Shown here piece after piece: positions 575 to 55,978 of a stretch of 64,000 nt of DNA. The notes beneath the pieces were generated by a model. That model made no database searches and was not told the DNA's origin. It was given only the letters and a program-made list of their open reading frames with translations. Made by a program: the position numbers and the translations under genes. Source of the DNA: Haloferax marisrubri (GTDB lineage Archaea > Halobacteriota > Halobacteria > Halobacteriales > Haloferacaceae). Positions within the stretch are counted from its first letter, which is position 1, and each line of letters starts with the position of its first letter. Where the stretch lies: the NCBI RefSeq assembly GCF_001469875.2, contig NZ_LOPW02000010.1:779924-843923 (forward strand). Direction: 5' to 3'.

Positions 575-1822
575 TCACTCCCACGGGACGGAGCGCTGGG
601 TCAGCTCGCCTTCGAGGTTCCGGCCCATCGCGTCGGTCGGGTCCGCGAGGTTGGCGAGCGACCACATGAGCTTCACCTTCGCCGTGCCGGGGAGCGTGTC
701 GCCCGCCTCGACGACGCCGGCGTCGAGCAGGTCGCGCCCGGTGTCGTAGACGCGGTCGCAGACGCGGCCTTCGAGACACTGCGAGGTCATGGCGACGACC
801 GTGCCGTCGTCGACGAGTTCCTCGAACCGCGGGATGAGGTCGGTGTGGACGTGGCCGAGGCCCGTCCCCTCGATGATGACGCCGGCCTTCCCGTCGAGGT
901 AGTCGAGCGCCGCGGGGTCCATCCCGGGCGTGAACTTCACGAGTTCCACCTCGGATTCGATGTCGGCGTGGAGCGCGAGGTCGGCCTCGCCGCGGGGGGC
1001 GTAATCGCGGCGGAACGTGACCTCCTCGGCCTCGTAGTCGACCTCGCCGAGCGGCTTCGCGCCGACGGTCTCGAACGCGTCGCGCCGGGAGGTGTGATTC
1101 TTGCGGACGCGCGTCCCCTCGTGGAGCGCGCAGACGTCGTCGGACTCCGAGCCGTGCATGCAGATCATGACCTCGGCGGCGTCTGCCTTCGCGGCCTCGA
1201 CGGCGCAGACGGCGTTCATCACGTTGTCCGAGGAGGGTCGGTCCGCCGAGCGCTGACTGCCCGTGAAGACGATGGGCACGGGCGTGTCGAGCATGAACGA
1301 CATCGCCGACGCGGAGAACTGCATCGTGTCGGTGCCGTGCATGACGACGACGCCGTCGGCCCCGGCCTCGATTTCCTCGGCGATGGCCTCGGCGAGGTCG
1401 ACCCACACGTCTGTCGTCATGTTCTCCGAGAGGATGTTGGCGACGACGCGGCCGCGGTAGTTCGCCCGCCCCGCGAGGTCGGGGACGGCCCGGAGCACGT
1501 CCTCGGCGTCGAACTGCGCGGTCACCGCGCCCGTGCGGTAGTCGACCGTCGAGGCGATGGTCCCGCCGGTCGAGATGAGCGAGACGGTCGGGAGGTCGTC
1601 GTCGAACTCGATTTCGGAGGTGCCGTCGCCCTCGGACTGTGCGTCTTCGATGTCGTACACGTCGGTTTCGAGGACGTCCACGTCGGCTCCCTCGCGGGCG
1701 ATGCCGACGTTGTACCCGCCGTCGAGTTTGACGACGAGGTGGTCCTCGGTGGAAGACGGCATGAGCACGCCTTCGTTCGTGACGTCCGCGCGGGTGACGC
1801 GGACGCGGTCCCCTGCGTTCAT
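575..1822 (-). CDS. gatD: Glu-tRNA(Gln) amidotransferase subunit D
   Basis: 415 residues. GatD is the L-asparaginase-like subunit of the archaeal GatDE enzyme, which converts Glu-tRNA(Gln) to Gln-tRNA(Gln); it releases ammonia from glutamine or asparagine for the GatE subunit. The N-terminal 80 residues form the GatD-specific beta-barrel extension. The asparaginase nucleophile motif TGGTIAS is at about 85-91 and the second catalytic motif HGTDTM at about 161-166. I chose the ATG at 1822 (MNAGDRVRV), since in-frame codons upstream to 2026 give a basic, non-haloarchaeal leader. GatE is not in this window. The N-terminal extension separates it from plain L-asparaginase. Confidence 0.95.
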   Translation of the reverse strand: MNAGDRVRVTRADVTNEGVLMPSSTEDHLVVKLDGGYNVGIAREGADVDVLETDVYDIEDAQSEGDGTSEIEFDDDLPTVSLISTGGTIASTVDYRTGAVTAQFDAEDVLRAVPDLAGRANYRGRVVANILSENMTTDVWVDLAEAIAEEIEAGADGVVVMHGTDTMQFSASAMSFMLDTPVPIVFTGSQRSADRPSSDNVMNAVCAVEAAKADAAEVMICMHGSESDDVCALHEGTRVRKNHTSRRDAFETVGAKPLGEVDYEAEEVTFRRDYAPRGEADLALHADIESEVELVKFTPGMDPAALDYLDGKAGVIIEGTGLGHVHTDLIPRFEELVDDGTVVAMTSQCLEGRVCDRVYDTGRDLLDAGVVEAGDTLPGTAKVKLMWSLANLADPTDAMGRNLEGELTQRSVPWE

Positions 1823-2028
1823 ATCGCGGGATACCGTGGGGGCAGACTTCAAACCCACCTTTTTACCGTTCGGGGTCGCCGGAGGCGACCCACTCACGGT
1901 AAAAACCTGGAGGGAAAAACGCCGAGTAGCTCGCTTCGCTCGCGACTCGGGACGACAACTGAGGGAGAACCGAATCGCACGGGCGCAACGAATGAGCTGT
2001 CTGCGCCCACGACATAACGGACACAAGA

Positions 2029-2038
2029 CATTTTAGCC
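2029..2038 (+). promoter_or_regulatory. box A (TATA) of the 2059 gene
   Basis: CATTTTAGCC lies 21-30 nt before the ATG at 2059. That spacing is the haloarchaeal leaderless arrangement, in which transcription starts at or next to the start codon. Confidence 0.55.
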
Positions 2039-2058
2039 GACCGGGTGTCTGCCAGCGT

Positions 2059-2268
2059 ATGCTTCCCACGATACTCCTCCAGTCGCGCGGCGCAGGCGCG
2101 CTCGTAATCGGCCTGCTGTTTTTCCTCCTGTACCTCGGGATGGTGGTGTGGACGTACCGCGACGCGAAGCGACACAGCAGTCACCCGGCGTTCCTCTGGG
2201 CCGTCGTCGTCTTTCTCGCCCCGCTTCTGGGAATCGTCCTGTACCTCATCTTGGGTCGGGGTTCGTAA
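2059..2268 (+). CDS. PLDc_N-domain small membrane protein
   Basis: 69 residues with two predicted membrane helices (about 14-32 and 45-65). Between them is WTYRDAKRHSSHPAFLW, followed by P-L-x-G-x-x-x-Y-L-I-L-G-R. This is the signature of the phospholipase D N-terminal (PLDc_N) family, in which the segment anchors enzymes or stands alone as here. There is no catalytic domain, so no reaction can be assigned. It is divergent from gatD, with its own box A. Confidence 0.8.
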   Translation: MLPTILLQSRGAGALVIGLLFFLLYLGMVVWTYRDAKRHSSHPAFLWAVVVFLAPLLGIVLYLILGRGS

Positions 2269-2349
2269 CCACCGCGTCGCGCCTCCTTTTCGACGAGAAT
2301 CTATCGCGCCGGCACAAGAGCCATCAGGCTCGCCCGCGACCCTGTACAC

Positions 2350-2844
2350 ATGCAACGGTCGGACCAACGAGAGTCTGAGCAGTCCGTCGACGACCTGCTC
2401 TCCGGAGTGAGCCGCGAGAGCGACGAGGCGGCGGAGACGGGTCGGTCGGCGTCGTCCGGCGGCGGTCGCCTCAGCGGGCTGTTCTCCCCGCGCGTGTTCC
2501 TCGCGGCGCTCTTGCTTTCCGTCGGCGGCCTGCTCGTCGGCGGCGCGATTCCCATCGTCGGCTTCATCGGTCGGTTCGTCGGCATCGCCGCCGCCGGCTT
2601 CCTCCTCGGCCTCGTCGGGTCGAAGCGACACTACACGGAGGTCGTGCTCGCCGGCGCAATCGCCGCCGGTCTCGCGTTCGTCCTCTCGACGCTGTTCGCC
2701 GTGTTCGCGCCCTTCGCGGTCCAACTGCTCGCGGACTACGGCGTCGCCATCGCGGGCGTCGGTGCGGCGAGCGGCGGGCTCGCGGGGCTGGTCGGGCACT
2801 ACTTCGGCCGCGACCTCAGAAACGGCCTGACACAGGAGCTGTAG
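2350..2844 (+). CDS. conserved membrane protein, DUF456-like
   Basis: 164 residues. The first 45 are polar and acidic (soluble side). Three to four hydrophobic segments follow, rich in Gly and Ala: about 53-75, 76-94, 100-122 and 126-148. The glycine-zipper-like repeats (GGLLVGGAIPIVGFIGR, GAASGGLAGLVG) resemble DUF456 membrane proteins. It ends 3 nt from the convergent regulator gene at 2848. No enzymatic motif is visible and the function is unknown. Confidence 0.7.
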   Translation: MQRSDQRESEQSVDDLLSGVSRESDEAAETGRSASSGGGRLSGLFSPRVFLAALLLSVGGLLVGGAIPIVGFIGRFVGIAAAGFLLGLVGSKRHYTEVVLAGAIAAGLAFVLSTLFAVFAPFAVQLLADYGVAIAGVGAASGGLAGLVGHYFGRDLRNGLTQEL

Positions 2845-2847
2845 GCG

Positions 2848-3501
2848 TCAGTCGATTCGCCAGCTATCGCCGTTGTGGGCGACGAGGTCGCCTTCAGCGA
2901 GGTGGTGAAGCGCGCTGTCGACGACCGCGGGGTCCGCGTTGAGGTCCTTCGCGATGCCGCGGACGGTGTTCGAGCCGTTTGCGAGCGCGGCGAGAATCTC
3001 CGCGTAGAACCGGCTGTCGGCGTCGACGCCGAGACGGTCGTTGAGGCGGTCGAGCACGTCGGTGATGCGGCCCTGCACCCACCGCTGGGCCAAGGAGAGT
3101 TCGTTGTCGAGTTCCTCCAGTTTCCCGAGTTCGCGCGCCAACTCGGAAACGTCGTCGCTCCCGGCGTTCTCGACTTCGAGCGTCACGTGCGGACAGCGCC
3201 CGGCCATGTCGAGGCTCGGACTCGGCGGGTAGGCGCTCTTCGCGCCGAACCCGTACGGCGAGACGTTCACCTCCAGTCGGAGGTTCCGTGAGATGTGGAA
3301 GTACTTGCGTCGCTGGTCGTCGGTGCGCGACTCGATGAGCCCCGCGTCCTCCAACTTTCGGAGGTGGTCGATGACGGCCTTGGGGCTGACGCCGAGGTAC
3401 TCGCTGATCTCGGTGACGTAGCACGGTTTGTGCGAGAGCAACCGCAGGATACGCCGGCGGTTTTCGTTCCCGAGTAGGTCGAGCAGTACCGCGGAGTCCA
3501 T
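2848..3501 (-). CDS. ArsR-family winged-helix transcriptional regulator
   Basis: 217 residues. Residues 1-75 form an ArsR/MarR-type winged helix: LLGNENRRRILRLLSHKPCYVTEISEYLG, then the recognition helix SPKAVIDHLRKLEDAGLI and a wing ending RRKYFHIS. Residues 85-150 include a helical stretch (ELARELGKLEELDNELSLAQ) that could mediate dimerisation. A second HTH-like segment appears near the C-terminus (VRGIAKDLNADPAVVDSALHHLAEGDLV). Two HTH-like units in one chain are unusual for plain ArsR proteins but common in haloarchaeal relatives. No ligand-binding cysteine pair is evident, so the effector is unknown. Confidence 0.85.
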   Translation of the reverse strand: MDSAVLLDLLGNENRRRILRLLSHKPCYVTEISEYLGVSPKAVIDHLRKLEDAGLIESRTDDQRRKYFHISRNLRLEVNVSPYGFGAKSAYPPSPSLDMAGRCPHVTLEVENAGSDDVSELARELGKLEELDNELSLAQRWVQGRITDVLDRLNDRLGVDADSRFYAEILAALANGSNTVRGIAKDLNADPAVVDSALHHLAEGDLVAHNGDSWRID

Positions 3502-3566
3502 TACGAGGTCATAGACTGCGGGCGGGGAAAAGCCTGACTCATGTGATACTCCGCGCCGTCGTGCGA

Positions 3567-4268
3567 TTAGCGATTGTGGCTCGCGGGGCGCTCACGGGTC
3601 CCCTCTGGGGAGTCCGGGAGGCGGTCGAACGCCCGCGACGCGAGGAACACCGCGAGGAACGAGAGGGCGACCGTGATACCCGCGAGGAGCGCCCCCGCCT
3701 CGTACTTCAGCGGCGGGTAGTAGCCGAAGCCGTAGTCGAACACGTCGTTGACGAGCGCGAGCGTGAGGGCGAACCCGAGCGCGCCCTTCGTGGTCGCGCC
3801 GTACCGCGGCACGACGAGGGCGAGCGCGAGAAAGCCCGCGTGGGTGAGCATGATGCCCCAGTAGTCCCAGAGCGCGGCCCCCGAGAAGCCGATGTAGAGG
3901 TCGGGCCGGAGGTTGAGCGCCACGACCGTCCAGACCCCGTACTTGACGAGCCAGACGAACGCGAGCGTGTGGAGGTACGCGAGCGGTCGGTTGACCGGGG
4001 CGTCGGCGACGCGGCGACCGAGGTTCGGAAGCAGCGTCGCGGCCGACAGCGTCATCAGCGCGAGGGCGGTCGGCGAGTCACCGAAAAGCGGGTAGAGGAA
4101 CGTCGGCAGGTCCGAGAGCGCGGGGTCGGAGTGGACGTAGAAGCTCACCCCGACGAGGAACGCGGCGGCGTTGAGGACGAGGAAGACGACGAGGCTCGGG
4201 CCGTTTCCGAGGTAGTACTCCGTCCAGTCGTCCACCGCGGCGTCGAGGTCGAAGTCGCGCAGACCCAT
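3567..4268 (-). CDS. DUF1405 family membrane protein
   Basis: 233 residues with about six membrane helices. Family-typical sequences include YVHSDPALSDLPTFLYPLFGDSP, the KYGVWTVVAL helix and the NDVFDYGFGYYPPL loop. These match the DUF1405 (YpjA-like) family of integral membrane proteins of unknown function. It is followed by the convergent regulator region and is divergent from gpmI. The first 30 residues are acidic and cytoplasmic. Confidence 0.85.
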   Translation of the reverse strand: MGLRDFDLDAAVDDWTEYYLGNGPSLVVFLVLNAAAFLVGVSFYVHSDPALSDLPTFLYPLFGDSPTALALMTLSAATLLPNLGRRVADAPVNRPLAYLHTLAFVWLVKYGVWTVVALNLRPDLYIGFSGAALWDYWGIMLTHAGFLALALVVPRYGATTKGALGFALTLALVNDVFDYGFGYYPPLKYEAGALLAGITVALSFLAVFLASRAFDRLPDSPEGTRERPASHNR

Positions 4269-4442
4269 CGCCGAGTCGGACGGCGCGCCGAAAGAAAAGG
4301 CCGTCGGGGTGGGAGCGGGGGCGGGAGCGGCGCACCCCCGTCGTCAGGGCGCGAACGCCGTCCTCTCATCTCCGTACGCGACACGTTGTCATCCCATGTC
4401 GGGAGCAAAGGACAGTTAGCCCGGCACGCCGAACGGCGACGT

Positions 4443-6035
4443 ATGGACGCAGCACTCATCATCCTCGACGGGTGGGGTCTCGGCGACCACGACCGCCGCG
4501 ACGCCATCAAGGCGGCGGACACGCCGAACTTCGACCGCTACCGCGACGCGGGAGCCTTCGGGACGCTCATCGTCGACGGCCGGCGCGTCGGCCTCCCGGA
4601 CGGCCAGATGGGCAACAGCGAGGTCGGCCACCTCAACATCGGGGCCGGCCGCGTCGTCAAGCAGGCGTACACCCGCATCGGCGACAGCATCGACGACGGC
4701 TCGTTCTTCGAGAACGAGGCCATCACGGCCGCCTACGACCACGCCGACGAACACGACGGCCGCGTGCACCTCATGGGCCTCGTCTCCGACGGCGGCGTCC
4801 ACTCCGACCAACAGCACCTCCACGCGCTCATCGAACTCGCCGCCGACCGCGGCGTCGAGGCCGTCACCCACGCCTTTACCGACGGCCGCGACACCAGCCC
4901 CACCGGCGGCGAGGAATACCTCTCGGACCTCGAAGCCGTCGCCGAAGAGCAGGGAACCGGCGGCGTCGCCACCGTCTCCGGGCGCTACTACGCGATGGAC
5001 CGCGACCAGAACTGGGAGCGCACCAAGCGCGCCTACGACGCCATCGTCGAGCGCGAGGCGGAGTGGTCCGCCGACACCGCCGTCGACGCCGTCACCGAGT
5101 CGTACGACCGCGGCGACACCGACGAGTTCGTCGAGCCGACCGTCGTCGACGACGCGCCCGCCCTCGAAGACGGCGACTCGGTCGTCTTCTTCAACTTCCG
5201 GGCCGACCGCGCGCGACAGCTCGTGCGGATGCTCTGCGACATCGAGCCCGTCTGGGAGTTCGAGACGACGCCGCCGGAGGTTCTCATGACGACGATGACG
5301 CAGTACGACAAGACGTTCGACGTCTCTGTCGCCTACCCGCCGGAACAGCCCGAAGACACGCTCGGTGAGGTGCTCGCCGGGGCAGACATGACGCAGTTGC
5401 GCATGGCCGAGTCCGAGAAGTACCCCCACGTCACCTACTTCCTCAACGGCGGTCGAGAGGTCGAGTTCGACGGCGAGATTCGGAACATCGTCGAGAGCCC
5501 CGACGTGCCGACCTACGACCTCCAGCCCGAGATGTCCGCGACGGAACTCACCGACACGGCCATCGACATCATCGAGACCGACGACCCGAACGTGATGGTG
5601 CTCAACTACGCCAACCCCGACATGGTCGGCCACACCGGCGACTACGAGGCCGCCATCGAGGCGGTCGAGGCCGTCGATGAACAGCTCGGGCGGCTCGTCG
5701 AGCGCGTCCGCGCCCACGGCGGCCACGTCTGTATCACCGCCGACCACGGCAACGCCGACGACATGGGCACCGAAGACGACCCGCACACGGCCCACACGTT
5801 CAACCCCGTCCCGTTCGTCTACCTCGCGGCCGACCGCGACGACGAGGCGGCCGCGGAGAACGACGCCGAGGACGAAGCCGCCGAAGACGCCGCCGAGGTC
5901 GACCCCGACCACCCGCTTTCGGGCGGTCGGACCGTCCGCGAGGGCGGGTCGCTGTGCGACATCGCGCCGACAATCCTCGAACTCGTCGGCGTCGACCAGC
6001 CGTCCGCGATGACCGGCGAGTCGCTGTTAGAGTAA
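4443..6035 (+). CDS. gpmI: 2,3-bisphosphoglycerate-independent phosphoglycerate mutase
   Basis: 530 residues. The enzyme interconverts 3- and 2-phosphoglycerate in glycolysis and gluconeogenesis, using two divalent metal ions and a phosphoserine intermediate. The start ILDGWGLGDH and the catalytic Ser59 in GQMGNSEVGHLNIGAGR are the alkaline-phosphatase superfamily signature. The metal-binding motifs NYANPDMVGHTG and ITADHGNADDM follow near residues 380-440. I chose the ATG at 4443, as the open frame continuing back to 3543 reads as a basic leader antisense to the neighbouring gene. An acidic Ala/Glu/Asp-rich insert sits near residues 463-485, before the last conserved block, and looks like a halophile-specific surface loop. 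Confidence 0.97.
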   Translation: MDAALIILDGWGLGDHDRRDAIKAADTPNFDRYRDAGAFGTLIVDGRRVGLPDGQMGNSEVGHLNIGAGRVVKQAYTRIGDSIDDGSFFENEAITAAYDHADEHDGRVHLMGLVSDGGVHSDQQHLHALIELAADRGVEAVTHAFTDGRDTSPTGGEEYLSDLEAVAEEQGTGGVATVSGRYYAMDRDQNWERTKRAYDAIVEREAEWSADTAVDAVTESYDRGDTDEFVEPTVVDDAPALEDGDSVVFFNFRADRARQLVRMLCDIEPVWEFETTPPEVLMTTMTQYDKTFDVSVAYPPEQPEDTLGEVLAGADMTQLRMAESEKYPHVTYFLNGGREVEFDGEIRNIVESPDVPTYDLQPEMSATELTDTAIDIIETDDPNVMVLNYANPDMVGHTGDYEAAIEAVEAVDEQLGRLVERVRAHGGHVCITADHGNADDMGTEDDPHTAHTFNPVPFVYLAADRDDEAAAENDAEDEAAEDAAEVDPDHPLSGGRTVREGGSLCDIAPTILELVGVDQPSAMTGESLLE

Positions 6036-52258: not shown

Positions 52259-53065
52259 TCACCCGGTCCGGAAGGAGAAGTCGGAACTCGGCGCGCTGTG
52301 GGTGAGCCACCCCATCGAGACCACGTCGACGCCGGTGTCGGCGTAGGCGGGGAGCGTCTCCAGCGTGATGCCCCCGCTGGCCTCCGAGATGACGCCTTCG
52401 GGGAGTCGGGAGACGCCCTCGCGGACCGCCTCGGGCGGGAGGTTGTCGAACAGGACGATGTCGGCCCCGGCGGCCGCGGCGCGCTCGCCCATCTCGGGCG
52501 TCTCGACTTCGACTTCGAGCTTCGTCGCGAACGACTTTCGCTCGGCGAAGCGGCGGACCGCCTCCTCCAGCCCGAGTTCTGCGACGTGGTTGTCCTTGAC
52601 CATCACCATCCCAGAGAGCGTGAGGCGGTGGGTGTCGCCGCCGCCGGCGACGACGGCGCGCTTTTCGACGCCGCGGAGGCCGGGGGTGGTCTTGCGGGTC
52701 GCGGCGACCCGAACCGAGTCCGACACCTCGCGGGCGGCGTCGACGGCTTCGCGGGTCGTGGTGGCGACGCCGGAGGCGTGGCCGACGACGTTGGCGGCGA
52801 CGCGCTCGCCGCGGAGGACGTTCCGGGCGTCGCCTGCGACGCGGAGAACCACGTCGCCCGCCTCGACCGCGTCGCCGACCTCGACCGCGTTCTCGGCCTC
52901 GACGCCGAGGGAGTCGAAGACCGCGACGGCGGCGTCGAGACCGGCGGCGACAGCCGGCTCCTTCGCCACGAGTCGCCCGGTGGTGTCGCCGGGCACGTCG
53001 TTCGTCACGTCGCGGTGGCCGACGTCCTCGGTCAGCCAGCGCTCGACCGTCTCAGTCGTCAGCAC
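52259..53065 (-). CDS. nadC: quinolinate phosphoribosyltransferase
   Basis: 268 residues, GTG start overlapping nadB by 14 nt. The enzyme joins quinolinate and PRPP to nicotinate mononucleotide with loss of CO2. Landmarks: GDVVLRVAGDARNVLRGERVAANVVGHASGVAT, ATRKTTPGLRGVEKRAVVAGGGDTHRLTL and MVKDNHVAELG. All catalytic Arg/Lys/His blocks are present. Confidence 0.96.
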   Translation of the reverse strand: MLTTETVERWLTEDVGHRDVTNDVPGDTTGRLVAKEPAVAAGLDAAVAVFDSLGVEAENAVEVGDAVEAGDVVLRVAGDARNVLRGERVAANVVGHASGVATTTREAVDAAREVSDSVRVAATRKTTPGLRGVEKRAVVAGGGDTHRLTLSGMVMVKDNHVAELGLEEAVRRFAERKSFATKLEVEVETPEMGERAAAAGADIVLFDNLPPEAVREGVSRLPEGVISEASGGITLETLPAYADTGVDVVSMGWLTHSAPSSDFSFRTG

Positions 53066-54644
53066 TCGGGGTCACCCCCTGTTCGGCGTCGTCGCCTTGC
53101 TCGTCTTCCTTGCTTCCCTCGCTTCCCTCGCTTCCGTCCGAGTCGACGAGCGAGTGACAGCCGGCCGACGGCGCGTCGGCGGCCGCGCGGGCGACGAGGA
53201 GCGACGAGACGCAGGCGTTCCGGAGTTCGTAGATGGACCGCGAGACGCGGGTGCGGGCGTAGGCGTCCACCTCGCCCTTCAGGCGGCGGAGCCGAGCCCG
53301 CGCGGTGCCGAGGCCGTCGGGGGTGCGTTCGATGCCGACGAACTCGTCCATCGTCCGCCCGAGGCGGTCGAACTTCGTGTCGGCGAAGGCGTCGGGGAGC
53401 GCCGGGTCGGAGTCGCGCGGCGGCGCGTACTCGACGGTCTCGGCTTCGCCACGGCCGCGTTCGGCCGCGGTCTCGCCGGCGCGGACGCCCCAGACGAGGC
53501 CTTCGAGCAGGCTGGTCGAGGCGAGTCGGTTCGCGCCGTGGACGCCGGTGCGGGCGCACTCGCCGGCGGCGAACAGGCGGGACAGCGAGGTCCTGCCGCG
53601 GTCGTCGACGGCGACGCCGCCGCAGAGGAAGTGCTCGCTCGGCGCGACCGGGATGCCGGCGTCGAGGTCGACGCCGCGGTCGTCGCACAGCGCCGCGAGG
53701 TCGGGGAACTCCTCGCGGAAGTCGAGGTCGGACACGTCGAGGACGACGCGGCCGGTTCGGTCGCGGGCGCGAGAGACGGCGCGGGCGACCACGTCTCGGG
53801 GGGCGAGTTCGGCGTCTTCGTGCACGTCAGGCATGAAGCGGTGGCCGTCGGCGTCGCGCAGGACCGCGCCCTCACCGCGAACGGCTTCGCTGACGAGGAA
53901 CGGTTGCGCGTCGTCGTCGGCCCGTTGGTCAGTCCGAGGGTCGTACGCCGTCGGGTGGAACTGGACGTACTGCATGTCCGAGACGGTCGCGCCGGCGAGC
54001 GCGGCCATCGCCACGCCGTCGCCGGTCGCGCCCGCGGGGTTGGTCGACCGGGCGTAACAGTCGCCGATGCCGCCGGTGGCGAGGACGGTCGCCCCGGCGA
54101 ACACCGGTTCGACTTCGCCGTCGGCGAGGACGGTCGCGCCGCGGACGGTCCCCTCCTCGGTCAGGAGGTCGAGGGCCGTCGCGTCCTCGACGATGCGCAC
54201 GCCGTCGCGGGCCGAGAGGTGCTGGAGAAACGGCCGGAGGACGTGTGCGCCGGTGCTGGCGTCGACGTGGAGGATGCGGCGGCTGGAGTGGCCCGCCTCG
54301 CGGGCGAGGTCGAAGTCGGCGGCGTCGGTGCCGTCTCCCACCGCGTCGAACTCGACTTCGAGCGTGTCCAAGAGCACGTCCTCGACGACGGCTCGGGACT
54401 CGGAGACGAGCGTCTCGACGGCCTCGGGGTCGGCGGTGCCGTCGCTCGCCCGGCGGATGTCGGCGGCGAACTCCTCGGGCGCGGACTGGGTGACGGCGAT
54501 GCCGCCCTGCGCCCAGTCGGACGCGGCGTCCTCGGGTTCGGTCGCCTTCGTGACGACGAGCACGTCGGCCCCCTCGCGGGCGGCGGCGAGGGCCGCGGCG
54601 CAGCCGGCGATGCCGGAGCCGACGACGAGCACGTCGGCCTTCAT
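53052..54644 (-). CDS. nadB: L-aspartate oxidase
   Basis: 530 residues from the ATG at 54644, overlapping the nadA stop (ATGA). The flavoenzyme oxidises L-aspartate to iminoaspartate, which NadA uses. The FAD motif VLVVGSGIAGCAAALAAAREGADV is at the start; SDWAQGGIAVT, GHSSRRILHVDASTGAHVL, DMQYVQFHPTAY, RFMPDVHEDAELAPRDVVARAV and CARTGVHGANRLASTSLLEGLVWG follow. The Ser/Glu/Gly repeat near the C-terminus (GSEGSEGSKE) is encoded by a 9-nt tandem repeat. Confidence 0.95.
   Translation of the reverse strand: MKADVLVVGSGIAGCAAALAAAREGADVLVVTKATEPEDAASDWAQGGIAVTQSAPEEFAADIRRASDGTADPEAVETLVSESRAVVEDVLLDTLEVEFDAVGDGTDAADFDLAREAGHSSRRILHVDASTGAHVLRPFLQHLSARDGVRIVEDATALDLLTEEGTVRGATVLADGEVEPVFAGATVLATGGIGDCYARSTNPAGATGDGVAMAALAGATVSDMQYVQFHPTAYDPRTDQRADDDAQPFLVSEAVRGEGAVLRDADGHRFMPDVHEDAELAPRDVVARAVSRARDRTGRVVLDVSDLDFREEFPDLAALCDDRGVDLDAGIPVAPSEHFLCGGVAVDDRGRTSLSRLFAAGECARTGVHGANRLASTSLLEGLVWGVRAGETAAERGRGEAETVEYAPPRDSDPALPDAFADTKFDRLGRTMDEFVGIERTPDGLGTARARLRRLKGEVDAYARTRVSRSIYELRNACVSSLLVARAAADAPSAGCHSLVDSDGSEGSEGSKEDEQGDDAEQGVTPSADD
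53103..53138. repeat. 9-bp tandem repeat in nadB 3' end
   Basis: GCTTCCCTC appears twice in tandem with a close third copy, encoding Gly-Ser-Glu repeats in the nadB tail. The unit length is a multiple of three, so slippage would keep frame. Confidence 0.7.
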
Positions 54645-55798
54645 AGTTCGAGCATACGGTCGAGCGCGACCGCGGCGAGTTCCTTCTCCTCGGGCGCGAC
54701 CTCGACGACGTTGGGTTCGCGGCCCGCGGCGAGTTCTTCGAGCACCCACGTCAGGTAGTTGGGGTCGACCTGCCGCATGGCGTTGCAGTCCATGCAGGCG
54801 TCGCCGCAGAGGGGGCGCACGTCGACCTCGGGGTGCCAGCGCGCGAGGTGTCGCGCGAGGTGGACCTCGGTGCCGATGGCCCACGTCTCGCCGGGGTCGG
54901 CGTTCTCGATGACGTCGCAGATGTGGCTCGTGGAGCCGACCTCGTCGGCGGCCGCGACGACGCTCGGGCGGCACTCGGGGTGGGCGACGACCTTCGCGCC
55001 GTCGGCCTGCGCCTCCTCGACGTGGTCGACGCGGAAGCGCTCGTGGACCTGACAGTAGCCGTCCCAGAGGATGACTTCGGCGTCGCCGAGGTCCGGGATA
55101 TCGGGTTCCACCTCGTCGGCAGCGCCCATCGACTCGGCCACGTCGCCGGCCCACGGGTCCCACTCGACGACCTCGTCGATGCCGAGTTCGTCGGCCGTGT
55201 TGCGCCCGAGGTGCTTGTCGGGCAGGAACAGCACGGCGTCGCCGCGCTCGAAGGCCCACTCGAAGGCGTCGGCGGCGTTCGAGGAGGTGCAGATGAGCCC
55301 GCCGTGGGAGGCGCAAAACGCCTTCAGGTCGGCGTAGGAGTTCATGTACGTCACGGGGATGATGTCCTTGCCGCCGGACTCCTCGACGAGCGTCTCCCAC
55401 GCGGAGTCGACCTGCACGGCCTCGGCCATCCCGGCCATCGGACACGACGCCTCCATCGACGGGAGAATCACCGTCTGGTCGTCGTCGGTGATGATGTCTG
55501 CGCTCTCGGCCATGAACGTCACGCCGGCGAAGACGACGTACTCGGCGTCCGACTCGGCGGCGCGTTTCGAGAGTTCGTAGGAGTCGCCGATGAAGTCCGC
55601 GTGCTCGACGATTTCGCGTCGCTGGTAGTTGTGTCCGAGCACGATGACTCGGTCGCCGAGTTCCTCGCGGGCGGCGGCGATTCGCCGGGAGCGGGCGGCC
55701 TCGTCGAGGTCGCGGTGGCTCTCCGGAAGCTGTTCGAGCGTGTCGTATTTGAACAGGCTGAGCTCCGACTCGAACCCGACCGACTGTAATTCAACCAC
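54641..55798 (-). CDS. nadA: quinolinate synthase
   Basis: 385 residues from the GTG at 55798. The enzyme condenses iminoaspartate with dihydroxyacetone phosphate to quinolinate, using a [4Fe-4S] cluster. Landmarks are RVIVLGHNYQRREIVEHADFIGDSYELSKRAA, FAGVTFMAESADII, SMEASCPMAGM, GLICTSSNAADAFEWAF and CGDACMDCNAMRQV, which supply the cluster cysteines. It opens the nadA-nadB-nadC operon. Confidence 0.95.
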   Translation of the reverse strand: MVELQSVGFESELSLFKYDTLEQLPESHRDLDEAARSRRIAAAREELGDRVIVLGHNYQRREIVEHADFIGDSYELSKRAAESDAEYVVFAGVTFMAESADIITDDDQTVILPSMEASCPMAGMAEAVQVDSAWETLVEESGGKDIIPVTYMNSYADLKAFCASHGGLICTSSNAADAFEWAFERGDAVLFLPDKHLGRNTADELGIDEVVEWDPWAGDVAESMGAADEVEPDIPDLGDAEVILWDGYCQVHERFRVDHVEEAQADGAKVVAHPECRPSVVAAADEVGSTSHICDVIENADPGETWAIGTEVHLARHLARWHPEVDVRPLCGDACMDCNAMRQVDPNYLTWVLEELAAGREPNVVEVAPEEKELAAVALDRMLEL

Positions 55799-55837
55799 GA
55801 TTGGTCACCACGGTGGAAGTCCAATCATCGGGCCTTA

Positions 55838-55858
55838 TTGAAAAATATTTTTCTTCAA
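55838..55858. promoter_or_regulatory. AT-rich palindrome 1 upstream of nadA
   Basis: A 21-nt element with arms TTGAAAAA and TTCTTCAA around an AT centre, 40 nt before the nadA start. It is nearly the same as the second element at 55957-55978, sharing TTGAAGAA, a short A/T core and TTTTC (the reverse complement of copy 1 is used for comparison). It also may contain the box A. Confidence 0.5.
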
Positions 55859-55956
55859 TACTCGCCACTTACCCGTAAAGATTCTCTACATAGCCGATTG
55901 GCCGGTGGTACTTACACCCGATCGAATGTTAGAAGCCGAAAGCAGTCGCTACTCTG

Positions 55957-55978
55957 TTGAAGAATAATTTTCTTCGAA
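55957..55978. promoter_or_regulatory. AT-rich palindrome 2 upstream of nadA
   Basis: A 22-nt element with arms TTGAAGAA and TTCTTCGAA around TAATT, 159 nt before the nadA start and just after the upstream amidohydrolase gene. It pairs with the first element; two such sites suggest a dimeric repressor of NAD synthesis genes or a looped complex. Confidence 0.5.

Follow-up and report, generated by a model that had tools for sequence, protein, structure and literature searches.

Two A/T-rich palindromes that precede the nadA-nadB-nadC genes of Haloferax marisrubri are very likely repressor binding sites through which haloarchaea control the synthesis of NAD and, probably, the uptake of vitamin B3, a reading for which there are as yet no binding data. 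The sequence motif, its position before nadA, the set of genes it marks, its linkage to a gene of the HFX_2341 ('Crr') family, and the joint loss of this gene and an operator are shown below. Taken as a whole, we consider it likely that a haloarchaeal NAD repressor uses the palindromes as its operators and that this repressor is HFX_2341, with both binding and ligand being inferred.

Two palindromes upstream of nadA

The window is the whole 64-kb stretch of DNA that was analysed. Within it, nadA leads a compact nadA-nadB-nadC gene cluster, and both palindromes fall within the 210 nt preceding it. The features are as follows.

55956-55978, minus strand: operator 2, 29.4 bits with a matrix derived from nadA sites
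55837-55859, minus strand: operator 1, 37.9 bits with the same matrix, the top score in the window
54641-55798, minus strand: nadA, quinolinate synthase (PF02445, E 8.4e-90)
53052-54644, minus strand: nadB, L-aspartate oxidase (FAD_binding_2, E 9.2e-76), overlapping the end of nadA by 4 nt
52259-53065, minus strand: nadC, quinolinate phosphoribosyltransferase (QRPTase_C, E 1.2e-53, and QRPTase_N), overlapping the end of nadB

Site 1 reads ATTGAAAAATATTTTTCTTCAAT on the plus strand and ATTGAAGAAAAATATTTTTCAAT on the nadA strand, and site 2 reads GTTGAAGAATAATTTTCTTCGAA and TTCGAAGAAAATTATTCTTCAAC, respectively. Each palindrome is 23 bp long; the centre of operator 1 lies 50 nt upstream of the nadA start, and operator 2 lies a further 119 bp upstream, measured centre to centre. 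With the matrix derived from nadA sites, every position in the window apart from these two stays at or below 0 bits, the next-best separate position reaching -0.1 bits. An earlier note, made from sequence alone, had described two nearly identical palindromes before nadA-nadB-nadC, 98 nt apart and both within a 210-nt region before nadA, and these claims held: both palindromes are real, and 98 nt is the gap between the cores recognised at that time. The same note had placed the first palindrome over the probable promoter. We likewise think it likely that operator 1 overlaps the nadA core promoter, an inference made because the site is A/T-rich, lies at a fixed short distance from the gene start, and has lost its symmetry at one base pair in nadA sites only.

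The octamer TTGAAGAA occurs six times in the window, as compared to 0.29 copies expected. Four of these copies, at window positions 5187, 19070, 21810, and 35511, lie outside any high-scoring palindrome and are unexpected in GC-rich DNA.

Conservation of the motif before nadA

A consensus of ATTGAAG-N9-TTCAAT, with an A/T core, was found approximately 50 bp upstream of nadA in every one of 80 haloarchaeal loci, which were the best 80 of 225 relatives recovered by a scan of genome contigs and from which the 23-bp matrix was refined. All but one of these sites score above 20 bits (the remaining site scores 14.3 bits), and nearly all lie about 50 nt from nadA, whereas the best of 1600 shuffled upstream regions reached 13.9 bits and the second best 6.5 bits. 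The nadA scores are partly circular, since the matrix was trained on these 80 sites; the scores of the symporter and pncB sites described below are not. In a separate sample of 59 genomes from the class, nadA was found in 39, each with a site of at least 17 bits. The nadA start of one of these genomes (G021) is misplaced, so its site position (-1) is meaningless, although its score is valid.

Operator 2 has a narrower distribution. It is strong (at least 24 bits), with a spacing of 118-119 bp, in six of the nine Haloferax loci compared, and weak in one further Haloferax locus (11.8 bits) and in Halogeometricum (16.3 bits), while a matrix scan detected no such site in the loci of Haloferax elongans and H. 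larsenii. The distance between the two operators is kept at 118-120 bp in Halogeometricum and wherever a Haloferax locus has both. As found in the loci compared, and without binding data, site 1 is thus a class-wide operator and site 2 an extra copy present in most Haloferax and, weakly, in Halogeometricum. The nadA sites also differ in symmetry from the symporter sites: at the seventh pair from the outside, palindromy is 0.03 of the 39 nadA sites versus 0.85 of the symporter sites, the latter being more symmetrical at both pairs 7 and 8 (0.85 and 0.93).

The motif marks NAD and niacin genes

The pattern TTGAA-N11-TTCAA, with at most one mismatch, occurs at 22 places in the 3.9-Mb source genome (control, 12). 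Only four of these have an A/T-rich core of the GAAGAA/TTCTTC type, as judged by eye: the two nadA sites, a site (ATTGAAGAAAATAGTTCTTCAAT) preceding a DUF3311 and sodium:solute symporter gene pair, and a site preceding pncB, which encodes nicotinate phosphoribosyltransferase (NF006415, 529 bits; cut-off 243). A search of the 59 genomes for TTGAAGRNAAANNNTNTTCAA with at most one mismatch returned 44 rows, which represent 43 distinct sites and come from 38 genomes; the control counts were no higher than 1. Using tblastn and known positions, all 43 sites could be placed: 31 precede nadA, 11 precede the DUF3311 and symporter pair, and one belongs to an ABC importer.

With a matrix trained on nadA sites only, the symporter site scores at least 12 bits in 37 of 50 genomes having the candidate regulator described below, and less than 12 bits in the other 13; most genera have a site before the DUF3311 and symporter pair. 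Sites before pncB are more restricted; upstream regions were scored in 30 of the 59 genomes, and only four reach 12 bits, all from the genus of the source genome (g1) or genus g3. No further motif of at least 12 bits was detected in 398 kb of loci, comprising 20 long loci chosen around known sites. In one genome (G037), nadABC is directly followed by the symporter gene, which has a palindrome of its own. The nearest substrate model for the symporter is panF, with a score below the cut-off. The single ABC site, in G014, lies upstream of a four-gene importer that runs towards a second pncB-type gene (pncB2), and this arrangement recurs in G048, a member of another family, where the site scores only 7.1 bits.

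The motif therefore marks an NAD/niacin regulon, as it is found at nadA, the symporter, pncB, and an importer beside pncB2. That it is the operator of this regulon is very likely, with the proviso that the NAD-precursor cargo of both transporters is inferred and that binding data are lacking. The earlier note had held that a specific operator should be conserved before nadA in other haloarchaea and should not be common genome-wide; it is conserved in all loci and genomes with nadA that were compared (80 of 80 and 39 of 39), and it is rare and marks NAD genes.

The importer itself is NMT1/SsuA-like, and its four genes face the second pncB-type gene at two loci (L416:552-574 and 634-5985; L417:2174-7626), one of which has a 36.1-bit operator. 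Perhaps this importer carries an NAD precursor, a possibility that we infer.

HFX_2341 as the candidate regulator

When gene neighbourhoods of 20 loci, the window, and three others were clustered, a protein of approximately 300 residues recurred beside both the symporter and nadC, and was identified with Pfam and NCBIfam as a member of the HFX_2341 family. The protein of the source genome (L087:9480-10424) matches NF051475 with 586.8 bits, over the equivalog cut-off of 500, and contains the domains HFX_2341_N (PF19810, E 5e-23) and DUF7776 (PF24989, E 7e-35); its gene (G000:C10:579479) lies about 4.2 kb after the symporter. Orthologues are present in 56 of the 59 class genomes. Fifty genomes carry both the HFX_2341 gene and the symporter gene, and in 38 of them no more than 15 kb separates the two. 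In G001 and G007 the HFX_2341 gene follows the symporter immediately, the two overlapping by 4 nt, whereas in G006 and G017 it is next to nadC, roughly 2.5 kb away from nadA. In some genomes it is far from both targets. Distances between nadA and the regulator gene were entered for 10 of the 39 genomes with nadA. By eye, no operator was seen in the 100 nt upstream of the HFX_2341 gene itself in L087.

HFX_2341 of Haloferax mediterranei was described in 2024 as a CRISPR-related repressor and global regulator that affects cas genes, with an HHpred match of 99.74% to the CARF regulator Csa3a (PMC11434293). Loss of HFX_2341 raises transport and coenzyme genes, the coenzyme category increasing by a mean of 11-fold in rich medium; no significant change in cas genes was detected by RNA-seq in the deletion strain, whereas qPCR and over-expression showed cas repression (PMC11434293). 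Its ligand has only been speculated on, and its binding sites are not known (PMC11434293). The main text of that study contains no NAD terms and no NAD target. Of the four published deletion primers, two fall inside the source-genome gene, one matching exactly and one with three mismatches, and the two flanking primers have no match in L087.

The earlier note had proposed the operator of an uncharacterised NAD regulator. The operator part of this proposal is supported and the regulator part is refined, as the HFX_2341 family has already been published (PMC11434293). Its statement that no regulator was established for such a site in haloarchaea agrees with the literature searched, in which we found no NAD regulator for haloarchaea and no link between NAD and either HFX_2341 or CARF proteins. 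The case for HFX_2341 as the regulator of the NAD sites rests on linkage, co-loss, and the published deletion, and no binding, footprint, or expression data tie the protein to the sites; it is likely the right candidate, and we name it with good but not final confidence.

NiaR was also considered as the regulator and was rejected: its 3H domain (PF02829) has no match in the source genome, while Bacillus subtilis and Thermotoga maritima controls were positive.

Co-loss of the candidate regulator and the symporter operator

Genus g2 (the genus of G008) comprises 52 genomes, of which 43 have an HFX_2341 orthologue and nine do not. One genome with only a 43% paralogue (G067) was counted as lacking the regulator, and two without a symporter match (G068 and G074) were left out of the resulting table of 50 genomes. 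The symporter operator scores at least 21 bits in all 42 genomes with the regulator and below 0 bits in all eight without it (Fisher p 1.9e-9). On a tree of the symporter gene, which is not a species tree, each trait changes three times, and all three independent pairs are concordant (sign test p 0.25, the floor for three pairs). A plain pattern count gave no match in G060 and G088, which have the regulator, and a two-mismatch match in G015, which does not, on a contig other than that of its symporter gene.

One exception is G009, which lacks the regulator and keeps a 21.3-bit nadA site. Its nadA operon is on a 166-kb contig (L318; G009:C2), and its NadA is nearest, at 88.6%, to that of G023, a member of another family. 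Both observations suggest a recent transfer of this nadA together with the operator of its donor.

Proposed mechanism and rival explanations

In our model, the HFX_2341 protein would combine a Csa3/CARF-like domain at its N terminus with a winged helix at its C terminus, and a dimer of it would bind the palindrome and cover the nadA core promoter. Plentiful niacin or NAD would lead it to block transcription, and a fall in NAD would release the repressor, with a joint increase in de novo synthesis, in the uptake of precursors, and, in Haloferax, in salvage. Operator 2, with its near-constant spacing, would probably make repression stronger, either through cooperative binding or through formation of a small DNA loop. 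The ligand would most likely be NAD or a niacin-derived nucleotide, which is the least certain step and a guess from the regulon.

It could be argued that the palindromes are NAD-regulon operators but that their repressor is another conserved transcription factor, with HFX_2341 being linked to the symporter gene by synteny alone. Long conserved synteny could indeed give the linkage, and a dnaG-like gene is also near the symporter in several genomes; moreover, the distance of HFX_2341 from both targets in some genomes, and the lack of a visible autoregulatory site in the short region inspected in L087, would fit such a view. We nevertheless regard it as unlikely, given that HFX_2341 adjoins nadC in G006 and G017, that it is lost along with the symporter operator on three separate g2 branches, that its deletion derepresses coenzyme genes (PMC11434293), and that it is the one regulator beside both the symporter and nadC among the clustered recurrent neighbours. 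Absence of the 3H domain from the source genome also counts against this rival, but the exclusion covers NiaR and not NrtR, NadQ, or NadR.

Two further rivals would deny a repressor role to one or other palindrome. The nadA palindrome may be merely a conserved core promoter (BRE and TATA), and its fixed position near -50 and its near-complete lack of palindromy at the seventh pair in nadA, as if the downstream half doubled as a promoter element, are in keeping with this. Such a promoter would not, however, explain why both GAA/TTC arms are conserved in 23-bp palindromes, why pairs 7 and 8 are more often symmetrical in symporter sites, why the motif is missing from most pncB promoters (26 of the 30 examined score below 12 bits), or why it is absent at 12 bits or more elsewhere in the 398 kb of loci, and we consider this explanation very unlikely. 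Site 2 is an inverted repeat about 30 nt past the stop codon (56009) of the upstream amidohydrolase gene, and could be a terminator or processing hairpin of that gene rather than a second operator. This too is unlikely, as site 2 scores 29.4 bits with the nadA operator matrix, its 118-120 bp spacing from operator 1 is kept in several species, and it is absent in H. elongans and H. larsenii.

Relation to known regulators

A repressor of NAD genes acting at promoter sites has ample precedent in bacteria, in which NiaR, NrtR, NadR, and NadQ repress genes of NAD synthesis, salvage, or niacin uptake. These proteins are alike in role to the regulator proposed here but belong to families different from HFX_2341. 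The likely regulator here is the source-genome orthologue of HFX_2341/Crr (PMC11434293; NF051475), which is reported to be a repressor; the published study reports no site or NAD target, whereas we assign both a site and an NAD regulon. Csa3a of Saccharolobus has the domain order proposed for HFX_2341 (CARF and winged helix) and is a dimeric regulator with palindromic sites near promoters (PMC8699464). It differs in that its ligand is cyclic tetra-adenylate and its genes of association are CRISPR loci, while the regulon here is metabolic, and the Csa3a site, TCCC-N8-GGGA, is unlike the TTGAA-N11-TTCAA palindrome (PMC8699464). The archaeal riboflavin regulator RbkR is likewise an archaeal cofactor regulator proposed from comparative genomics, but is a bifunctional enzyme and regulator of another pathway (PMC8305020).

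The assignment of HFX_2341 to these operators provides an exactly defined DNA site, a regulon of few genes, and a named candidate for which a deletion strain exists. It also predicts the substrate of a widespread symporter that has no known substrate, and suggests that cofactor repression is the main role of a protein that was named after CRISPR. The CARF fold is known for reading antiviral cyclic oligoadenylates, and the question is raised of what CARF-like domains sense outside antiviral signalling. It is tempting to speculate that a CARF-type sensor is the class-wide NAD sensor and repressor of haloarchaea, binding NAD or a niacin nucleotide; this bolder reading is tentative, and on balance we lean slightly against it. 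If it is true, the reported effect on cas genes is perhaps secondary, or perhaps reflects a link between NAD status and immunity.

Paralogues and distant relatives

Similarity of the family to Csa3 is weak at the sequence level. HFX_2341 paralogues match Csa3_N with E 0.0032 and cas_HTH with E 0.0011, both under the cut-offs. A PDB sequence search with a single protein found no relative, and the matches of a PDB profile search were limited to weak winged-helix hits (best E 0.018) and did not include Csa3. AlphaFold models of two fragments (L085, N-terminal; L044, C-terminal) had mean pLDDT values of 43 and 42, too poor for a fold search.

In a sample of the phylum, the family cut-off was passed in 20 of 148 genomes, all of the same order as the source genome, and distant relatives outside Halobacteria were not beside nad or symporter genes at the six loci inspected (L409-L412, L414, and L415). 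A role in NAD regulation is therefore not claimed for other relatives. No relative was found in the viral contigs searched.

The source genome also encodes a second HFX_2341-type paralogue (G000:C18:244079-244936; L306:2077-2949), approximately 44% identical, and G003 has a similar copy that is interrupted by an internal stop. Haloarchaea also have a separate DUF6293 branch (L308-L316; HFX_2341_N and DUF6293_C), which shows weak Csa3 similarity and is 22-25% identical to the NAD-linked type. At four of the loci outside Halobacteria (L409, L411, L412, and L415), the distant HFX_2341_N relatives adjoin or lie near a metallo-beta-lactamase-like gene, as judged by eye.
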